A DNA stretch of 64,000 nucleotides from assembly GCA_019510125.1 (NCBI GenBank), contig JAEKKX010000004.1, positions 248,001-312,000 of the forward strand, written 5' to 3'. The notes below the pieces were generated by a model. That model worked only from the letters and a program-made list of their open reading frames with translations. It was not told where the DNA came from and ran no database searches. Below are positions 6,941 to 13,036 of this stretch, in pieces; within the stretch, counting starts at the first letter, position 1; the number at the start of each line of letters is the position of its first letter. Made by a program: the position numbers and the translations under genes. This DNA is from Lysobacterales bacterium. Its GTDB lineage: Bacteria > Pseudomonadota > Gammaproteobacteria > Xanthomonadales > Xanthomonadaceae.

Positions 6941-7690
6941 TCAGCCGGCCAGTTCGGCCAGCGTGCGCTTCGCCAGGTCCAGCCATTCCCGCTGCTGGCG
7001 CTGGTAGTACTTCGGGGCCAGCCCGGTGCGCTTGATCGAGGCGCGCAGCACCTCGGCCGCCTCCGCGTCGCGGCCGGCGCGGCGCAGCAGCAGGCCGTGG
7101 CGGACCCGGGCCTCCTCGCCGGGATAGCCGTCGACCAGCGCGGCGTACTCGTGCAGCGCGCCGTCGATGTCGCCGCTCGCCTCCAGGCTGCGCGCGTAGA
7201 GCAGGTGGCCCTCGGGCGAACGGAAGTCGGGGTTGGCCGCGATCAGGTCGTCGAGGGTCTGCCGGGCCTCGGCATGCCGGCCCTGCGCGAATTCGGCGCG
7301 GGCCAGGCCGAGCATCAGGTCGGGATCGGTCCGGTACAGGCCGCGCAGGCCGGAGCGGTACATCTCGGCCGCCTGGGCGTAGTCGCCGCTGTCGAAACAT
7401 TCCCCGGCGAGCCGCTTGCGGTTGTCGAGGGTGTCGGCGACCTCCAGTTGGCGCGAGGCCTCGCGGCGGCGGCGGTCGGGATCGACCCGGTCCCGGGCCT
7501 GGCGCAGCACCTGGCGCGCGGCGCGGTTGTGGCGCATGTCCGGCAGCAGTTCGGCGATCACGTAGGCGGCCACGCCGACGAACGAACCCGCCATCAGGAT
7601 GAAGATCCACCAGTAGGCGCGTCCGGTGCGGATGGCATGCACGATGCAGCCGATCTGGAACAGCGCGGACAGCGACAACAGTGGATACAT
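6941..7690 (-). CDS. TPR-repeat membrane protein
   Basis: A 249-residue protein with two N-terminal hydrophobic segments (about residues 3-20 and 25-45), then a soluble region of tetratricopeptide-like helix pairs. These include [42 protein letters not shown] and [20 protein letters not shown]. The layout suits an inner-membrane anchored TPR scaffold. I do not recognise a named family beyond that. The ATG at 7690 gives a membrane segment directly at the N-terminus. It is divergent from the nitroreductase gene at 7862, with a palindrome in the 171-nt gap. Confidence 0.75.
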
Positions 7691-7753
7691 CGGCGACTCC
7701 GGACGACGGTCGCGCGGCCCCCGCCGCGGTCGGCGGAGTGTAGCAGCGGTCCG

Positions 7754-7767
7754 ATCCGGTACCGGAT
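7754..7767. promoter_or_regulatory. 14-bp perfect palindrome, candidate operator
   Basis: ATCCGGTACCGGAT reads identically on both strands. It lies in the divergent gap between the TPR gene (start 7690) and the nitroreductase gene (start 7862), and a second CCGGATCC half-site follows within 10 nt. It sits about 40 bp upstream of a plausible -10 (TATCGT, 7805-7810) for the rightward operon, a position where an activator or repressor could bind. No cognate regulator is encoded nearby. Confidence 0.4.
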
Positions 7768-7861
7768 GCGCCACCGGATCCGTTCGGCGCCGCGCCGGGC
7801 CTGCTATCGTTTGCACGCGCCGTGCCGCGGGCAGTCTCCGCGGCGCGGCCGGAGAACCTGC

Positions 7862-8530
7862 ATGAAGCCGTACCCCACCATCGCCCTGCCGCCGATGCCG
7901 GCCCGCACCGACGCCGAGCGCATCGCCGCCGCACGCGATTTCGCCGACCGCCTGTCCCGGCGGCGCACCGTCCGCGATTTCGCGGCCACCCCGGTGCCGC
8001 GCGAGCTGATCGAACACTGCCTGCGCGCCGCGGGCACCGCGCCCAGCGGCGCCAATCAGCAGCCCTGGCGCTTCGTCGCGGTGCAGGATCCGGCGCTGAA
8101 GCGCCGCATCCGCGACGCCGCCGAGGCCGAGGAGCGCGCGTTCTACGCCCATCGCGCCCCGGGCGAATGGCTGGAGGCGCTGGCGCCGCTCGGGACCGAC
8201 GCCGACAAGCCTTTCCTGGAGACGGCGCCGTGGCTGATCGGCATTTTCTACGAGCGCTTCGCCTTCGACGACGCCGGCAACAAGGTCAAGCGCTATTACC
8301 CGCACGAGTCCGTCGGCATCGCCACCGGCCTGCTGATCGCCGCGCTGCACGAGGCCGGCCTGGCCACGCTGACCCACACCCCCAGCCCGATGGGCTTCCT
8401 CAACGCGCTGCTCGGCCGCCCGAAGCACGAGATGGCCTACCTGCTGCTGGTCGTCGGCCACCCGGCCGCGGACTGCCGGGTGCCGGACCTCCGCCGCCTG
8501 GCGCTGGACGAGTACGCGGGGTTCCTGTGA
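7862..8530 (+). CDS. Iodotyrosine-deiodinase-like nitroreductase-family flavoprotein
   Basis: A 222-residue FMN-dependent nitroreductase-fold enzyme closest to the iodotyrosine deiodinase subgroup. Shared features are RRTVRDF at 34-40, [16 protein letters not shown] at 57-72, an EERAFYAHR lid segment near 90-98, LETAPWLI at 119-126, and [20 protein letters not shown] at 148-167. Glu91, Tyr95 and Lys116 occupy the positions of the Glu/Tyr/Lys set that holds the amino-acid substrate in that subgroup. The family performs reductive dehalogenation or other flavin chemistry; the substrate here is unknown. A GGAG site precedes the ATG. Its stop overlaps the next gene's GTG by 4 nt, making it the first gene of a four-gene unit ending in the borosin-like precursor. 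Confidence 0.85.
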
Positions 8531-9141
8531 ACGCCGCCGTGGACTGGGGCTACGCGGCGCGCCGTGTCGGCGCGCGGCTGGTCGACGATCGCGATCGCGC
8601 GCTGTACCGGTCGCTGTATTCCGACGCCGCGGTGATGGCCCACGTCGGCGCGGCGCTGGCCCCGGAGGCCGCCGATGCGCTGTTCGCGAAGGTGTGCGCG
8701 GCGAACGCGGCGACGCCCGCGATGGCCCGCTACTGGCGCGTGGACGATGCCCGCGGCGGCGGCCCGATCGGGCAGGTGTCGATGCTCCGCGACGCCGCCG
8801 ATCCGCGCTGCGCGGACCTGGGCGTGATGCTGCTGCCGCAGTGGCAGAACCGCGGCGTCGGCCTGTCCGCGCTGGCCGGGCTGGTCGATGCGCTGCTGTC
8901 GGATCGCTGGCCGCTGGCGCTCGAGACGCTGACCGCCCGCCACGCCGCGGCCAATCCGAACGCGGGCCGGCTCACCGGCGCGCTCGGCTTCGTGGTCGCG
9001 TCGGCGGACGCGGCGCAGGTGCTCTGGCGGCTCGACCGCCGCGACTGGCCGCAGGCCAGGGCGCACTGGCCCGCGGCCGCGCTGGGCAGGCAGCGCGCGG
9101 CCGTCGCCGTCGCGTCCGATCGGTCGGGGGAATCCGCATGA
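8527..9141 (+). CDS. GNAT-family N-acetyltransferase
   Basis: A 204-residue protein with the RimJ/RimL-like GNAT layout: an N-terminal [18 protein letters not shown] strand-helix, a central IGQVSMLRD strand, then [21 protein letters not shown], which carries the acetyl-CoA pyrophosphate-binding turn (QNRGVG). A later [17 protein letters not shown] segment is the family's C-terminal motif. It starts with GTG inside the nitroreductase stop (GTGA) and ends in an ATGA overlap with the methyltransferase gene, so its translation is coupled on both sides. GNAT enzymes modify proteins, antibiotics and some peptide natural products. Here a role in modifying the neighbouring peptide is an inference from gene order. 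Confidence 0.83.
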
Positions 9142-9971
9142 GTACGCAGGGCCGTTTCGTCGCAGTCGGGCTCGGGATGATGCTGGGCGCGCACCTTAGT
9201 CCGCGCGCGCGCAGCGAGATCGAGCACGCCGACGTCGTGTTCGGCCTCGTCTCCAACGCCCTGGTCGAACTGTGGCTGCAGGAGATGCGCCCCGACCTGC
9301 GCAGCCTCCAGCCGTTCTACGCCGAGGGCAAGCGGCGCACCGAGAGCTACCGCGAAATGATCGAGGCGATGATCGCCGAGGTGCGGGCCGGGCGCCGGGT
9401 GTGCGGCGTGTTCTACGGGCATCCCGGCGTGTTCGCGCAGGTCCCGCACCACGCCATCCGCGAGGCGCGCCGCGCCGGCTTCGAGGCCGAGATGCACCCC
9501 GGGATCTCCGCCGAGGATTGCCTGTACGCCGACCTCGGCATCGATCCGGGCACCTTCGGCTGCCAGCACTACGAAGCCAGCCAGTTGATGTTCCATCGGC
9601 GGCGGATCGATCTGGCCGCCTACCTCGTGGTCTGGCAGGTGGGGCTGGCCGGAGATCGCAGCCTGTCCCGGTACAGCACCTCCGTCGCCCACCGCCGGCT
9701 GCTGGTCGATCTGCTCGTCGAACACGGGTATCCGCCGGCGCACGAGGTGATCGTCTACGAGGCGGCGACGCTGCCGATCGACGTCCCGCGCATGGACCGG
9801 ATGCCGCTGGCGGCGCTCGCCGAGGCCGAGCTCGGCCTCGCCTCGACCCTGGTGGTGCCGCCGGCGCAGGCGATGGAAAGGAATCTCGCCATGCTCGCGC
9901 GCCTCGAAACCCTGGACGCGGCGCCGGGCGGCGCGGCGGAGCCTGCCGTCGCCCCCGCCGGACCGGCATGA
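9138..9971 (+). CDS. Borosin-type peptide backbone alpha-N-methyltransferase (split form)
   Basis: A 277-residue tetrapyrrole-methylase-fold protein that closely resembles the OphMA/SonM family, which iteratively methylates backbone amides of a peptide with SAM. Diagnostic blocks are GVFYGHPGVF at 90-99, PGISAEDCLYADLGIDPGTFGC at 121-142, HYEAS, and VVWQVG near 164-169. Tyr61, Arg67 and Tyr71 fall at the positions of the catalytic Tyr66/Arg72/Tyr76 of OphMA. Fungal borosin enzymes carry the substrate on their own C-terminus. Here the C-terminus is a short Ala/Pro-rich tail with no core-like segment, so this is the split type. The separate precursor candidate lies 218 nt downstream. Its ATG overlaps the GNAT stop (ATGA). 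Confidence 0.93.
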   Translation: MSTQGRFVAVGLGMMLGAHLSPRARSEIEHADVVFGLVSNALVELWLQEMRPDLRSLQPFYAEGKRRTESYREMIEAMIAEVRAGRRVCGVFYGHPGVFAQVPHHAIREARRAGFEAEMHPGISAEDCLYADLGIDPGTFGCQHYEASQLMFHRRRIDLAAYLVVWQVGLAGDRSLSRYSTSVAHRRLLVDLLVEHGYPPAHEVIVYEAATLPIDVPRMDRMPLAALAEAELGLASTLVVPPAQAMERNLAMLARLETLDAAPGGAAEPAVAPAGPA

Positions 9972-10006
9972 GCGTCCGGCGAGGGCCGAAAAATCGCCTG
10001 AAGTGA

Positions 10007-10035
10007 TTGATGCAGATGGATTTTTCGCATAGCCT
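10007..10035 (+). promoter_or_regulatory. Possible promoter for the borosin precursor
   Basis: TTGATG at 10007-10012 and TAGCCT at 10030-10035 are separated by 17 bp in a locally AT-richer stretch. This would give the precursor its own promoter besides read-through from the methyltransferase. The -10 match is weak. Confidence 0.3.
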
Positions 10036-10132
10036 GCAGGCGCGATCAGGCGTCGCGGACCCAAGGGAACGGCCAAAAAAGCCTTCTTCATCAATGGGTT
10101 ACGTCGCCCTCGGGGTCGCTGCCGTTGACGCC

Positions 10133-10156
10133 GATGACCGGTGGGAGCCGGTCATC
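10133..10156 (+). promoter_or_regulatory. Hairpin in the leader of the borosin precursor
   Basis: A perfect 9-bp stem (GATGACCGG at 10133-10141, CCGGTCATC at 10148-10156, 6-nt loop) ends 22 nt before the precursor's AGGGGG ribosome-binding site (10179-10184). No T tract follows, so it is unlikely to be a simple terminator. It could stabilise or separate the precursor transcript, which must be made in excess over the enzyme, or bind a regulator. Confidence 0.45.
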
Positions 10157-10189
10157 CCGTTGGAAAATCAAGCTGAATAGGGGGATTCG

Positions 10190-10465
10190 ATGTCGAATGT
10201 GATCCAGTTCCTTGCATCCATGGGAGCAAATGCCCCAATGGCGAGGATGTCTATGGAAGAATACGAAGCCGCCATCGCCGCGCTGGATGCGGGCGACCGA
10301 ACCCTGCAGGCGCTGAAGCGCAAGGACGTCAAGTCGCTCGTCGACGAACTCAGCGATCGCGACACGATGATGTGCATGGTCTTCGCGCCCGACGAGAAAC
10401 AGCCGGAAGATGCCCCGGGCGAGGAAGAGGAAGAACAGGTCCCCGACGACAAGTCCCTCGAATAA
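10190..10465 (+). CDS. Split-borosin precursor peptide (candidate)
   Basis: A 91-residue small protein directly after the borosin-type methyltransferase. Residues 1-57 are a helical domain (VIQFLASMGANAPM, then EEYEAAIAALDAGDRTL, then ALKRKDVKSLVDELSD). From memory, its spacing and residue pattern resemble the borosin-binding leader of SonA from Shewanella oneidensis. A short hydrophobic stretch follows, TMMCMVFAP at about 59-67, in the place where SonA carries its methylated core. Residues 68-91 form an acidic Pro/Glu/Asp tail, which SonA lacks. The ATG has a strong AGGGGG site 5 nt upstream. The assignment rests on gene order and pattern similarity; the methylated residues cannot be told from sequence. 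Confidence 0.82.
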   Translation: MSNVIQFLASMGANAPMARMSMEEYEAAIAALDAGDRTLQALKRKDVKSLVDELSDRDTMMCMVFAPDEKQPEDAPGEEEEEQVPDDKSLE

Positions 10466-10524
10466 ACGTTCCACCGGTGCGCCGGTCTGCCGTTCAAGAT
10501 TCAAGTTCCCGCTGAGGTCTCTCC

Positions 10525-12327
10525 ATGCAAAGGAAGCATTTCGCCGCAGTCCTCCTCCTCCTGTCGTCCCTGCTGGGCGCGCGCGTCGAGGCGGCTGCAC
10601 CGCTGGATCTGGACAAGACCCTGGCGGAAGCCGACGGCATCCGGAGCGCCCGACCCAAGGAGTTCCTGGGGCTGCTGCAGCAGCTCCAGGAACGCCGCGC
10701 CGCGGCCACGGCCGTGCAGGCCCAGCACATCGACTACCTGCAGGCGTACGCGCTGGGCGTCTACAAGGACAAGCCCGAGGAGAGCGTGCGCCTCGCCAGG
10801 AAGATCTTCGACGAGACCCGCGACGAAACCCTGAAGTACCGCGCCGGCAGCCTGGTGGCGAACATGTCGGGTCTGATCCGCGACTTCAGCACCGGCCTGC
10901 GCTACATGCAGCGGACGCTGCCGCTGCGCAACCGGGTCGGCAACCGCGATTTCCGCCATGACGGCATCGGCGCCGCGGCGGTGCTCTACAACGAGATCGG
11001 CCAGTACCAGATCGGCCTGCGCTACGCCAAGGAAATGCTCGCCGACAAGCCGAGCCCGCGGATCAAGTGCGCCGCCGGATACGTCCAGATCGAATCCATG
11101 CTCGAACTCGGCACCCTGCCGAAGGACGACGACCTGGTCAACGGCGTGATCGGCGACTGTTCCGCCATCCACGAGCTGATCCCGCTGAACATCTCGCGGA
11201 TGGTGCTCGCCCGGAAGTGGGCCGCCGAACAGAAATTCGAGGACTCGATCAAGCTGCTCGAGGATTCGCTGCCCGAGATCGAGCTCACCCGCTACCCGCG
11301 GCTGATCGCGCGCGCCCACGCGCTGATCGCCGATTTCAAGCTCAAGACCGGCGACGTGAAGTCCTCCGAGGCGCACGCGAACATCGCGATTTCGCTCGGC
11401 GAGCAGATCAAGTCCTCCACGACGCTGGTCAGCGCCTACAACACGCTGTACCAGATCGCCGCGCGCCGCGAGAAGCCGACCCTCGCGCTCGAACTCTACA
11501 AGCGCTACGCCGAGTCCGAGATCGCGCACCAGAACGACGTCAAGGCGAAGGAACTCGCGTTCGAGATCGTCCGCCACGAAACCATGCGCCAGACCCAGCA
11601 GATCGCGCTGCTGGAACGCAACAACCAGGTCCTGCGCCTGCAGCAGTCGCTCGACCGCGAGAACGCGCAGAAGGCGCGGCTGGCGACGGTGTTCCTGATG
11701 CTGCTGCTGGCCGGCATCGTGTTCTGGGCCATCCAGGTCAAGCGGCACCAGGCGCAGTTGCAGCGGTTGGCGCAGACCGACGGCCTGACCGGCATGCGCA
11801 ACCGCCACTTCTTCACCCAGAAGTCGGAGCGCGCCCTGGTCGACGCCGCGCGCGCGGGCGAGCCGGCGGCGCTGGTCATGTTCGACCTCGACCACTTCAA
11901 GGCGATCAACGACACCTACGGCCACGGCGCCGGCGACTGGGTGCTCAAGCAGGTCGGCAAGACCTGTTCGGCGCACTGCCGGCGGATCGACTACCTCAGC
12001 CGCATCGGCGGCGAGGAGTTCGCGGTGCTGCTGCGCGGGTTCGACCTCGCGGCCGCGGCGCGGCTGGCCGAGGACTGCCGCGCGCAGCTCGCCCAGATCG
12101 ATACCCGCGAGAGCGGCTATTCGTTCGTCGTGACCGCCAGCTTCGGCGTCAGCTCGACCGCGCAGTCCGGCTACGACCTCTCGCGCCTGATGTCGCACGC
12201 CGACCAGATGCTGTACCGCGCGAAGAACGAGGGCCGCAACCGCGTCTGCGCCTACACCGCCGAGGCCGCGACCGAGCGCCGCAACGCGCCCAAGCGTTCG
12301 CCGTCGCTGACGGTCGTCGGCTCCTGA
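10525..12327 (+). CDS. TPR-containing diguanylate cyclase (GGDEF)
   Basis: A 600-residue protein with an N-terminal signal peptide (hydrophobic run to about residue 24), a periplasmic region of TPR-like helices (about 30-370), one membrane segment at about 386-406, and a cytoplasmic GGDEF domain. The catalytic loop is GGEEF at 495-499. An RxxD inhibitory site (RRID) precedes it by five residues, so the enzyme should make cyclic di-GMP and be product-inhibited. This is the layout of extracytoplasmic-sensing diguanylate cyclases. It starts 59 nt after the borosin precursor in the same direction and may share its transcript; a functional link is not established. Confidence 0.92.
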   Translation: MQRKHFAAVLLLLSSLLGARVEAAAPLDLDKTLAEADGIRSARPKEFLGLLQQLQERRAAATAVQAQHIDYLQAYALGVYKDKPEESVRLARKIFDETRDETLKYRAGSLVANMSGLIRDFSTGLRYMQRTLPLRNRVGNRDFRHDGIGAAAVLYNEIGQYQIGLRYAKEMLADKPSPRIKCAAGYVQIESMLELGTLPKDDDLVNGVIGDCSAIHELIPLNISRMVLARKWAAEQKFEDSIKLLEDSLPEIELTRYPRLIARAHALIADFKLKTGDVKSSEAHANIAISLGEQIKSSTTLVSAYNTLYQIAARREKPTLALELYKRYAESEIAHQNDVKAKELAFEIVRHETMRQTQQIALLERNNQVLRLQQSLDRENAQKARLATVFLMLLLAGIVFWAIQVKRHQAQLQRLAQTDGLTGMRNRHFFTQKSERALVDAARAGEPAALVMFDLDHFKAINDTYGHGAGDWVLKQVGKTCSAHCRRIDYLSRIGGEEFAVLLRGFDLAAAARLAEDCRAQLAQIDTRESGYSFVVTASFGVSSTAQSGYDLSRLMSHADQMLYRAKNEGRNRVCAYTAEAATERRNAPKRSPSLTVVGS

Positions 12328-12364
12328 CCGGGCGCGGCGCCGCGGCGTCCGCGCAGGTTTCGCC

Positions 12365-13036
12365 ATGACGACTTCGACGTCCCCCGGCGATCCCGCGCCG
12401 GAGGACGGCGCGCCGGTCGCGCTGCCCGAGGCGCAGTGGCAGGCGCTGCGCGAGGCCTACGCCACGCCGGTGCGGGCCTACCACCACTTCGGACACGTGC
12501 GCGAGACGCTGGCGCACCATCGCGCGGTCGCGCGCGAGGCCGGCTGGACGTCGCCGGCCGAGACCTGGCTGGCGCTGCTCTACCACGACGCGATCTACGT
12601 CCCCGGCCGCAAGGACAACGAGGCGCGTTCGGCCGAGCTGGCGCAGGCGCACCTGCGGCGCTGGCCGCCGCCCGCCGGCGTCGACCCGTCGCGGGTCGCC
12701 GCGCTGATCGCGCTGACCGCGCGCCACGGCGCCCTCGACGCCGACGATTTCCCGCGCACGCCGGAGGGCGAGGACACGCGGCGCTTCCTCGACTGCGACA
12801 TGGCGATCCTCGGCGCCGATCCGGACGCGTTCGCGGCCTACGATCGCGCCATCGCCGAGGAATACCGCGCCGTGCCGCGCTGGCTCTATCGCCGCAAGCG
12901 CCGCGCGTTCTTCCGCGGCCTGCTCGAACGCGAGCGGATCTTCCTGAGCGACTTCTTCCGCGACCGCCTCGAAGCCGCGGCCCGGCGCAATCTGCAGGCG
13001 ATGCTGGCGGACGGCGACGCCGCCGGCGCGCGCTAA
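12365..13036 (+). CDS. HD-superfamily metal-dependent phosphohydrolase-like protein
   Basis: A 223-residue protein of the group annotated as predicted metal-dependent HD phosphohydrolases. The YHHFGHV segment (about residues 39-45), the HD pair in LLYHDAIYVPGR, the NEARSAELA helix and a later FLDCDMAILGAD give a complete set of potential metal ligands. The substrate is unknown; some databases give the family a misleading receptor-subunit name. The TAA stop is part of the TAAAAT that may be the -10 box of the following trhO gene. Confidence 0.8.
   Translation: MTTSTSPGDPAPEDGAPVALPEAQWQALREAYATPVRAYHHFGHVRETLAHHRAVAREAGWTSPAETWLALLYHDAIYVPGRKDNEARSAELAQAHLRRWPPPAGVDPSRVAALIALTARHGALDADDFPRTPEGEDTRRFLDCDMAILGADPDAFAAYDRAIAEEYRAVPRWLYRRKRRAFFRGLLERERIFLSDFFRDRLEAAARRNLQAMLADGDAAGAR

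Follow-up and report, generated by a model that had tools for sequence, protein, structure and literature searches.

Split borosins were defined in a study of SonM and SonA (PMC8429565), a type IV pair from Shewanella oneidensis in which, as in the locus described here, a separate methyltransferase of the 263-aa class accompanies a small precursor with an N-terminal binding domain; in the parts of that study covered here, no such pathway had at that time (2021) been tied to a final product, and a receptor is not discussed. A second paper names GGDEF, in the legend of its Figure 1, as a domain in one borosin architecture (PMC11395268), so the link between GGDEF and borosins is not in itself new; the portion of that paper covered here does not specify the borosin type concerned and mentions no role for the domain, no tetratricopeptide repeat (TPR) ectodomain, no separate receptor gene and no signaling. 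Our literature search found no paper joining borosins with diguanylate or cyclic di-GMP (c-di-GMP), the main borosin mining literature lying outside this search, so that earlier remarks on GGDEF are possible there. That literature reportedly centers on Imani 2022 and Lee 2024.

Here, we analyzed a 64,000-nt stretch of a Lysobacterales bacterium genome (GCA_019510125.1, contig JAEKKX010000004.1, positions 248,001 to 312,000), hereafter the window, and focused on five genes at 7862-12327 that encode a nitroreductase, a GNAT acetyltransferase, a SonM-like methyltransferase, a 91-aa precursor and a membrane diguanylate cyclase. The cyclase gene directly follows the precursor gene and was absent from the initial annotation of this DNA; it is a closer partner of the borosin genes than either of the two tailoring enzymes proposed there. 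From sequence comparisons, we lean toward the view that the locus encodes a borosin peptide signal together with its own membrane receptor, in a cassette ordered GNAT, methyltransferase, precursor and receptor.

A split borosin methyltransferase and its precursor

The closest PDB match of the methyltransferase was SonM (7ltc, E 6.4e-73, over residues 5-256 of 277), followed by OphMA-type enzymes at about 1e-45, and 120 of the 251 residues aligned with SonM were identical (48%). The SonM study mutated four active-site residues, Y58, R67, Y71 and Y93 (as given in the covered part of PMC8429565), and all four are kept here, as Y61, R67, Y71 and Y93. PF00590 was the only Pfam domain of the protein and no fused core was present, the methyltransferase and the precursor being encoded by separate open reading frames (ORFs).

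The 91-aa protein gave nothing above cut-off in Pfam, and a PDB search with its sequence alone returned chance matches (E 0.31 or worse) and no SonA. When a profile of 49 members of the precursor family was used, SonA chains were the sole clear PDB matches (E 1.8e-10 to 4.3e-9), with an alignment that spans the binding domain and reaches into the core. The alignment puts the predicted core of the window precursor at residues 58-69. This placement is supported by the precursor of a related locus, L121, in which a similar unit occurs four times by eye (SCLVFTPEE, FCWVATPEE, FCAVNTPEL and FCGVLTPEE), and by the precursors of L052 and L081, which stop right after this unit. The observation is not a chance one: of 297 genomes sampled from the family, 104 gave a methyltransferase match, and relatives of the 91-aa protein occur beside the enzyme in other loci. 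The initial annotation had called the methyltransferase and the separate precursor a split borosin, and the conserved SonM residues together with the SonA profile match bear this out: by homology, the locus is a split borosin of the type IV kind, for which backbone methylation is predicted.

Some related loci carried precursors or methyltransferases of other forms. The four-core precursor of L121 (G031) lies beside the methyltransferase and a C39-peptidase ABC transporter, with GNAT present and no receptor nearby. A long precursor made of GYAxDAAIIK repeat units stands beside the methyltransferase of L196 (G721), where no TPR receptor was found. The methyltransferases of L163 and L164 (G304 and G294) have approximately 170 extra C-terminal residues and about 39% identity to that of the window, and neither precursor nor receptor was found at these two loci. 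Finally, contigs C10 and C38 of G029 gave matches of identical score for methyltransferase, precursor and receptor, which reflects either a duplication or an assembly artifact.

A TPR-GGDEF gene beside the methyltransferase and precursor

The comparison covered 163 methyltransferase loci, made up of 100 regions of strong methyltransferase matches, L013, L014 and the window, and two further sets of 20 and 40 regions. The 100-region set omits the duplicate contigs G029:C38 and G188:C25 as well as G199, G168, G141 and G164; the 40 regions comprise 38 picked by hand across genera, from 126 places below E 1e-30, plus G471 and G360. Many of the 163 loci share genera and are hence not independent, and the loci scanned with the profiles were also those used to build them. 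The profiles failed to detect seven divergent precursors (L102, L105, L113, L116, L135, L141 and L013), which were recognized by eye. A protein was counted as a receptor if it combined a TPR ectodomain with a GGDEF or kinase output, or if GGDEF was fused to the methyltransferase.

So defined, a receptor was present in 146 of the 163 loci, 119 of which encode a TPR-GGDEF protein, 9 a TPR-histidine kinase and 18 GGDEF and methyltransferase as a single ORF. The linkage was seen in the first set (95/103 loci, 33/38 genera) and in a second order (33/40 loci), and 141 of 146 precursors had a receptor ORF within 700 nt downstream on the same strand. The window's own genome contains 16 GGDEF domains in 4.08 Mb; by our arithmetic, a same-strand GGDEF within 5 kb downstream would be expected by chance in about 1% of loci. 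Among 59 relatives, the ectodomain was found in 31 of the 35 genomes with the methyltransferase versus none of the 24 without it (p 9e-13), a count that leaves out a weak match in G032, which has no methyltransferase (E 5e-4), and the fused G014 and G023. The precursor showed a similar distribution (32/35 versus 0/24, p 1e-13). Across 369 genomes sampled from the whole class, a full-length ectodomain (E <1e-50) was found in four, all with the methyltransferase, among the best five candidates per genome.

The arrangement of these genes also varied from locus to locus. L091 is ordered methyltransferase, precursor, receptor, precursor, receptor, and extra precursor-receptor pairs occur in L120 and L122 as well. 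L166 is a lone precursor-receptor pair lying approximately 87 kb from the methyltransferase of the same genome, and neither methyltransferase nor GNAT was found in its flanks (about 5 kb on each side). In 18 loci (L145-L162), GGDEF and methyltransferase are joined in one ORF, that of L145 containing TPR_12, GGDEF and TP_methylase by Pfam; the ectodomain profile recognizes 16 of these 18 fused ORFs, and 17 of the 18 have a precursor immediately 5′. An output swap was observed in L140 and L141, where the ectodomain is joined to HisKA, HATPase and receiver domains. At L168, which probably belongs to a Shewanella genome, a methyltransferase 93% identical to SonM is followed by a SonA-like precursor and then by a TPR-GGDEF gene.

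By hydropathy and Pfam, the window cyclase consists of a signal-like N terminus, an ectodomain of approximately 350 residues, one transmembrane (TM) segment and a GGDEF domain that keeps both the GGEEF motif and the RxxD I-site. Across the collection, GG(D/E)(D/E)F is kept in 149 of 152 TPR-GGDEF ORFs and the I-site in 101 of 152, and simple hydropathy found a signal-like N terminus and a TM segment in 154 of 162 receptors. We call the window ectodomain TPR-like because it is homologous to those of L014, L136, L140 and L145, in which Pfam TPR models score over cut-off. A profile of 41 ectodomains gave 165 PDB matches, to TPR structures generally, including RapF and Rap105 (E ~1e-6), and the resemblance to Rap proteins may be taken as a fold-level hint. 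A pair of cysteines, residues 182 and 212 in the window ectodomain, is present in 151 of 151 aligned GGDEF-type ectodomains (135/135 separate and 16/16 fused) and in 3 of 10 kinase-type ones, which fits a periplasmic disulfide. A link between this pair and the cysteine of the core was considered and rejected, as receptors retain the pair both with cores that contain a cysteine and with cores that contain none.

Several observations weigh against a dedicated receptor. By profiles, 17 of the 163 methyltransferase loci have none, among which L051, L106 and L119 end at a contig edge, and five of the nine genomes with a strong methyltransferase match in the class-wide sample lacked a full-length ectodomain match among the best five candidates per genome. 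Conversely, receptors without a precursor exist, namely that of L165 and second copies in L074, L077 and L088; no precursor was seen by eye before the extra receptors of these four loci or of L167. The N-terminal region of the window cyclase has no TPR match of its own in Pfam. No exporter or peptidase gene is conserved in the window's cluster or common to all loci, and L121, beside which the sole exporter was seen (a C39-peptidase ABC transporter), has no receptor nearby. Lastly, mirror-tree partial correlations given the methyltransferase were 0.29 for core-TPR and 0.39 for core-GGDEF (73 loci). A reading of this signal as receptor specificity was rejected, since it is not particular to the ectodomain.

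Gene layout, GNAT and nitroreductase

The features of the locus are collected in Table 1. The initial annotation had described three genes overlapping by 4 nt, followed after 218 nt by a 91-aa ORF, and our coordinates agree. In the ORF list, the overlap is GTGA between nitroreductase and GNAT and ATGA between GNAT and methyltransferase, and the gap between the 91-aa ORF and the cyclase ORF is 59 nt.

Table 1. Features of the borosin locus and adjoining cyclase gene (positions in the window)
Feature	Coordinates	Strand	Details
Nitroreductase, iodotyrosine-deiodinase-like	7862..8530	+	222 aa; PF00881 E 7.7e-24
GNAT acetyltransferase	8527..9141	+	GTG start, 204 aa; PF13302 Acetyltransf_3 E 1.1e-13
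SonM-like borosin alpha-N-methyltransferase	9138..9971	+	277 aa; PF00590 TP_methylase E 1.9e-24
Promoter-like element TTGAT-N17-(A/T)TAGCCT	10007..10035	+	genus-conserved, ~180 nt 5′ of precursor start
Borosin precursor, 91 aa	10190..10465	+	SonA-like borosin binding domain, core, acidic tail
Predicted precursor core, residues 58-69 DTMMCMVFAPDE	10361..10396	+	aligned near SonA L63/I65
Membrane diguanylate cyclase, 600 aa	10525..12327	+	PF00990 GGDEF E 9.5e-44
Cyclase, TPR-like ectodomain	~10591-11640	+	
Cyclase, TM segment	11683-11733	+	
Cyclase, GGDEF domain	~11770-12243	+	

GNAT had been assigned to the pathway from the window alone, and its frequent presence near the methyltransferase (79/103 loci, 28/38 genera; 98/163 loci in the wider set) establishes it as a conserved partner. 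Its position varies, lying 5′ of the methyltransferase, between methyltransferase and precursor, or 3′ of the receptor. GNAT accompanied precursors with an acidic tail in 79 of 90 loci, versus 7 of 31 where the precursor had no acidic tail (p 3.5e-11), a tail being called acidic with at least eight D/E in the last 25 residues, a rule set after the sequences had been viewed; it was found in none of the 18 loci with a fused GGDEF-methyltransferase ORF. Because GNAT occurrence follows the tail type of the precursor, the probable substrate of the enzyme is the tailed precursor or its product. In 24 of the 163 loci, all 24 with GNAT, a pepsin-like protease was encoded (PF00026 was confirmed in the two tested), and none was found in the window's own cluster. 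In genus g61 (L070, L072, L078, L082, L084, L087, L097 and L101), GNAT lies 3′ of the receptor, and in four of these eight loci the downstream copy is additional to one 5′ of the methyltransferase.

The nitroreductase had been described as an iodotyrosine-deiodinase-like flavoprotein, which its closest PDB matches confirm at the sequence level (5ko7, E 6.1e-60; 3tnz, E 1.3e-49), and as a second tailoring enzyme, a role that was not supported. Of 103 loci, eight had it near the methyltransferase, and these eight belong without exception to the window's own genus, which contributes 10 of the loci (1/38 genera). Within that genus, G003 and G008 carry methyltransferase, GNAT and precursor with no nitroreductase match anywhere. 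Close homologues (54-77% identity) occur in genomes without the methyltransferase, and in five genomes with it outside the genus the nitroreductase lies on contigs other than that of the methyltransferase. Among the 59 relatives, nitroreductase presence did not track that of the methyltransferase (13/35 with versus 7/24 without, Fisher p 0.59). Identity to the window protein within the genus was 76-83% for the nitroreductase versus 27-54% for GNAT (own-genus and near loci). We thus rejected the nitroreductase as a tailoring enzyme on linkage, and it is probably an operon neighbor in this genus, outside the conserved system. The proposed co-occurrence of all four genes among relatives was therefore upheld for GNAT and not for the nitroreductase. 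A literature search returned no paper joining borosins with a nitroreductase and none joining borosins with Lysobacter.

A promoter-like element precedes the precursor by 172-183 nt in all nine own-genus loci in which a precursor was found, with 12 matches in total in 1.75 Mb, the element having been defined from the same sequences in which it was then counted. This suggests that precursor and receptor may have a transcription start of their own. A sigma-70 consensus scan of positions 7600-12500 returned no promoter-like site, the element at 10007-10035 included, and the same interval contained two terminator-like sites versus 2.5 expected. Downstream of the cyclase, the window encodes an HD-domain-like protein (12365-13036; PF01966 below cut-off), and 12 loci from six genera have a related downstream ORF.

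Proposed function, alternatives and known systems

In the mechanism that we propose, the methyltransferase would bind the 91-aa precursor by its helical leader and N-methylate backbone positions of the core, at about residues 58-69. A peptidase would then cut off the leader and the acidic tail, and GNAT would probably acetylate the released peptide, or else the precursor. The greasy methylated peptide would reach the periplasm and be bound by the TPR-like ectodomain, and binding would alter the activity of the cytoplasmic GGDEF domain and hence the level of c-di-GMP. In other lineages, the same ectodomain would drive a hybrid histidine kinase, or the GGDEF domain carries a C-terminal methyltransferase. 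The nitroreductase is probably not part of this cassette.

Linkage by itself gives no direction, and the cyclase could instead be an input regulator whose ectodomain senses another cue, c-di-GMP timing borosin production and the peptide acting elsewhere, for instance as an antibiotic or a metal binder. Such an arrangement would agree with a core-GGDEF correlation as high as the core-TPR one, and the acidic tails and the cysteine conserved in many cores would suit other functions. We nevertheless find it unlikely, given that the precursor is paired more tightly with the receptor than with the methyltransferase (as in the duplicated pairs and the lone pair without a methyltransferase), that histidine-kinase outputs replace GGDEF with the ectodomain retained, and that an Rfam scan of the window gave no match, c-di-GMP riboswitch included. 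The single ORFs that join GGDEF and methyltransferase in 18 loci raise another explanation, in which the precursor, methylated or not, is a regulatory protein acting in the cytoplasm on the methyltransferase and GGDEF parts of the membrane protein. Such a role would be compatible with the stable, folded state in which SonA partners SonM (PMC8429565, in the part covered) and with the finding that no peptidase or exporter is common to all loci. It is harder to reconcile with the four-core precursor and C39-ABC exporter of L121, the repeat precursor of L196, the L052 and L081 precursors that end just past the core, or the protease that is joined by GNAT in each of its 24 loci, and we consider a regulatory precursor decidedly improbable.

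The pathway as first proposed, a single borosin route with nitroreductase and GNAT tailoring, could draw on the 4-nt overlaps and on the eight of ten own-genus loci with a nitroreductase near the methyltransferase, which may reflect a genus-specific recruitment. It appears very improbable in view of the two own-genus genomes that keep methyltransferase and GNAT without the nitroreductase, the homologues in genomes lacking the methyltransferase, a presence that does not follow the methyltransferase, and an identity within the genus that greatly exceeds the GNAT value, as would be expected of a conserved enzyme with no relation to the borosin genes. As many loci come from related genera and the counts are not independent, plain inherited synteny, or chance, might also be invoked for the linkage as a whole; with seven or more gene orders, fused ORFs, a precursor-receptor pair standing alone, loci from two taxonomic orders and no ectodomain in the 24 relatives that lack the methyltransferase, we regard this as hardly credible.

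Returning to a peptide signal with its own receptor, we are evenly divided on whether it extends to split borosins as a whole, SonM/SonA included, as a widespread family of ribosomal, backbone-N-methylated signals in which each precursor has its own periplasmic TPR receptor feeding c-di-GMP or a phosphorelay, one branch having receptor, cyclase and methyltransferase in a single protein. A putative receptor gene beside the precursor makes the role of a split borosin peptide directly accessible to genetic experiments. If the proposal is correct, backbone-methylated peptides would join the known cell signals, and the receptor could be used as a genetic reporter in the search for the mature molecules.

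Peptide binding by TPR folds is known from Rap and related Gram-positive receptors, which bind small secreted peptides. Unlike the proposed window receptor, Rap receptors are cytoplasmic and have neither TM segment nor GGDEF domain, and their matches to the ectodomain profile are weak (E ~1e-6), unrelated TPR proteins matching more strongly. With regard to processing, shewasin A is said to cut a borosin precursor. Shewasin is a bacterial pepsin (PMC4814920, in the part covered), and the pepsin-like proteases (PF00026) that lie by 24 of the 163 methyltransferases, the window's cluster having none, are similar to it. Control by a ligand acting through TPR has a precedent in RcbB of Vibrio vulnificus, a TPR and GGDEF protein in which the TPR domain keeps the cyclase repressed until a partner lifts the repression (PMC12282931, in the part covered); the partner of RcbB is another TPR protein, and the covered text of that paper does not mention borosin genes, with zero occurrences of methyltransferase. 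SonM/SonA remains the closest described system, as the window shares its active-site residues and its binding-domain profile match; the two differ in that the window precursor bears an acidic tail after the core, with GNAT encoded upstream, whereas nothing follows the core in SonA-like precursors, whose loci are without GNAT.

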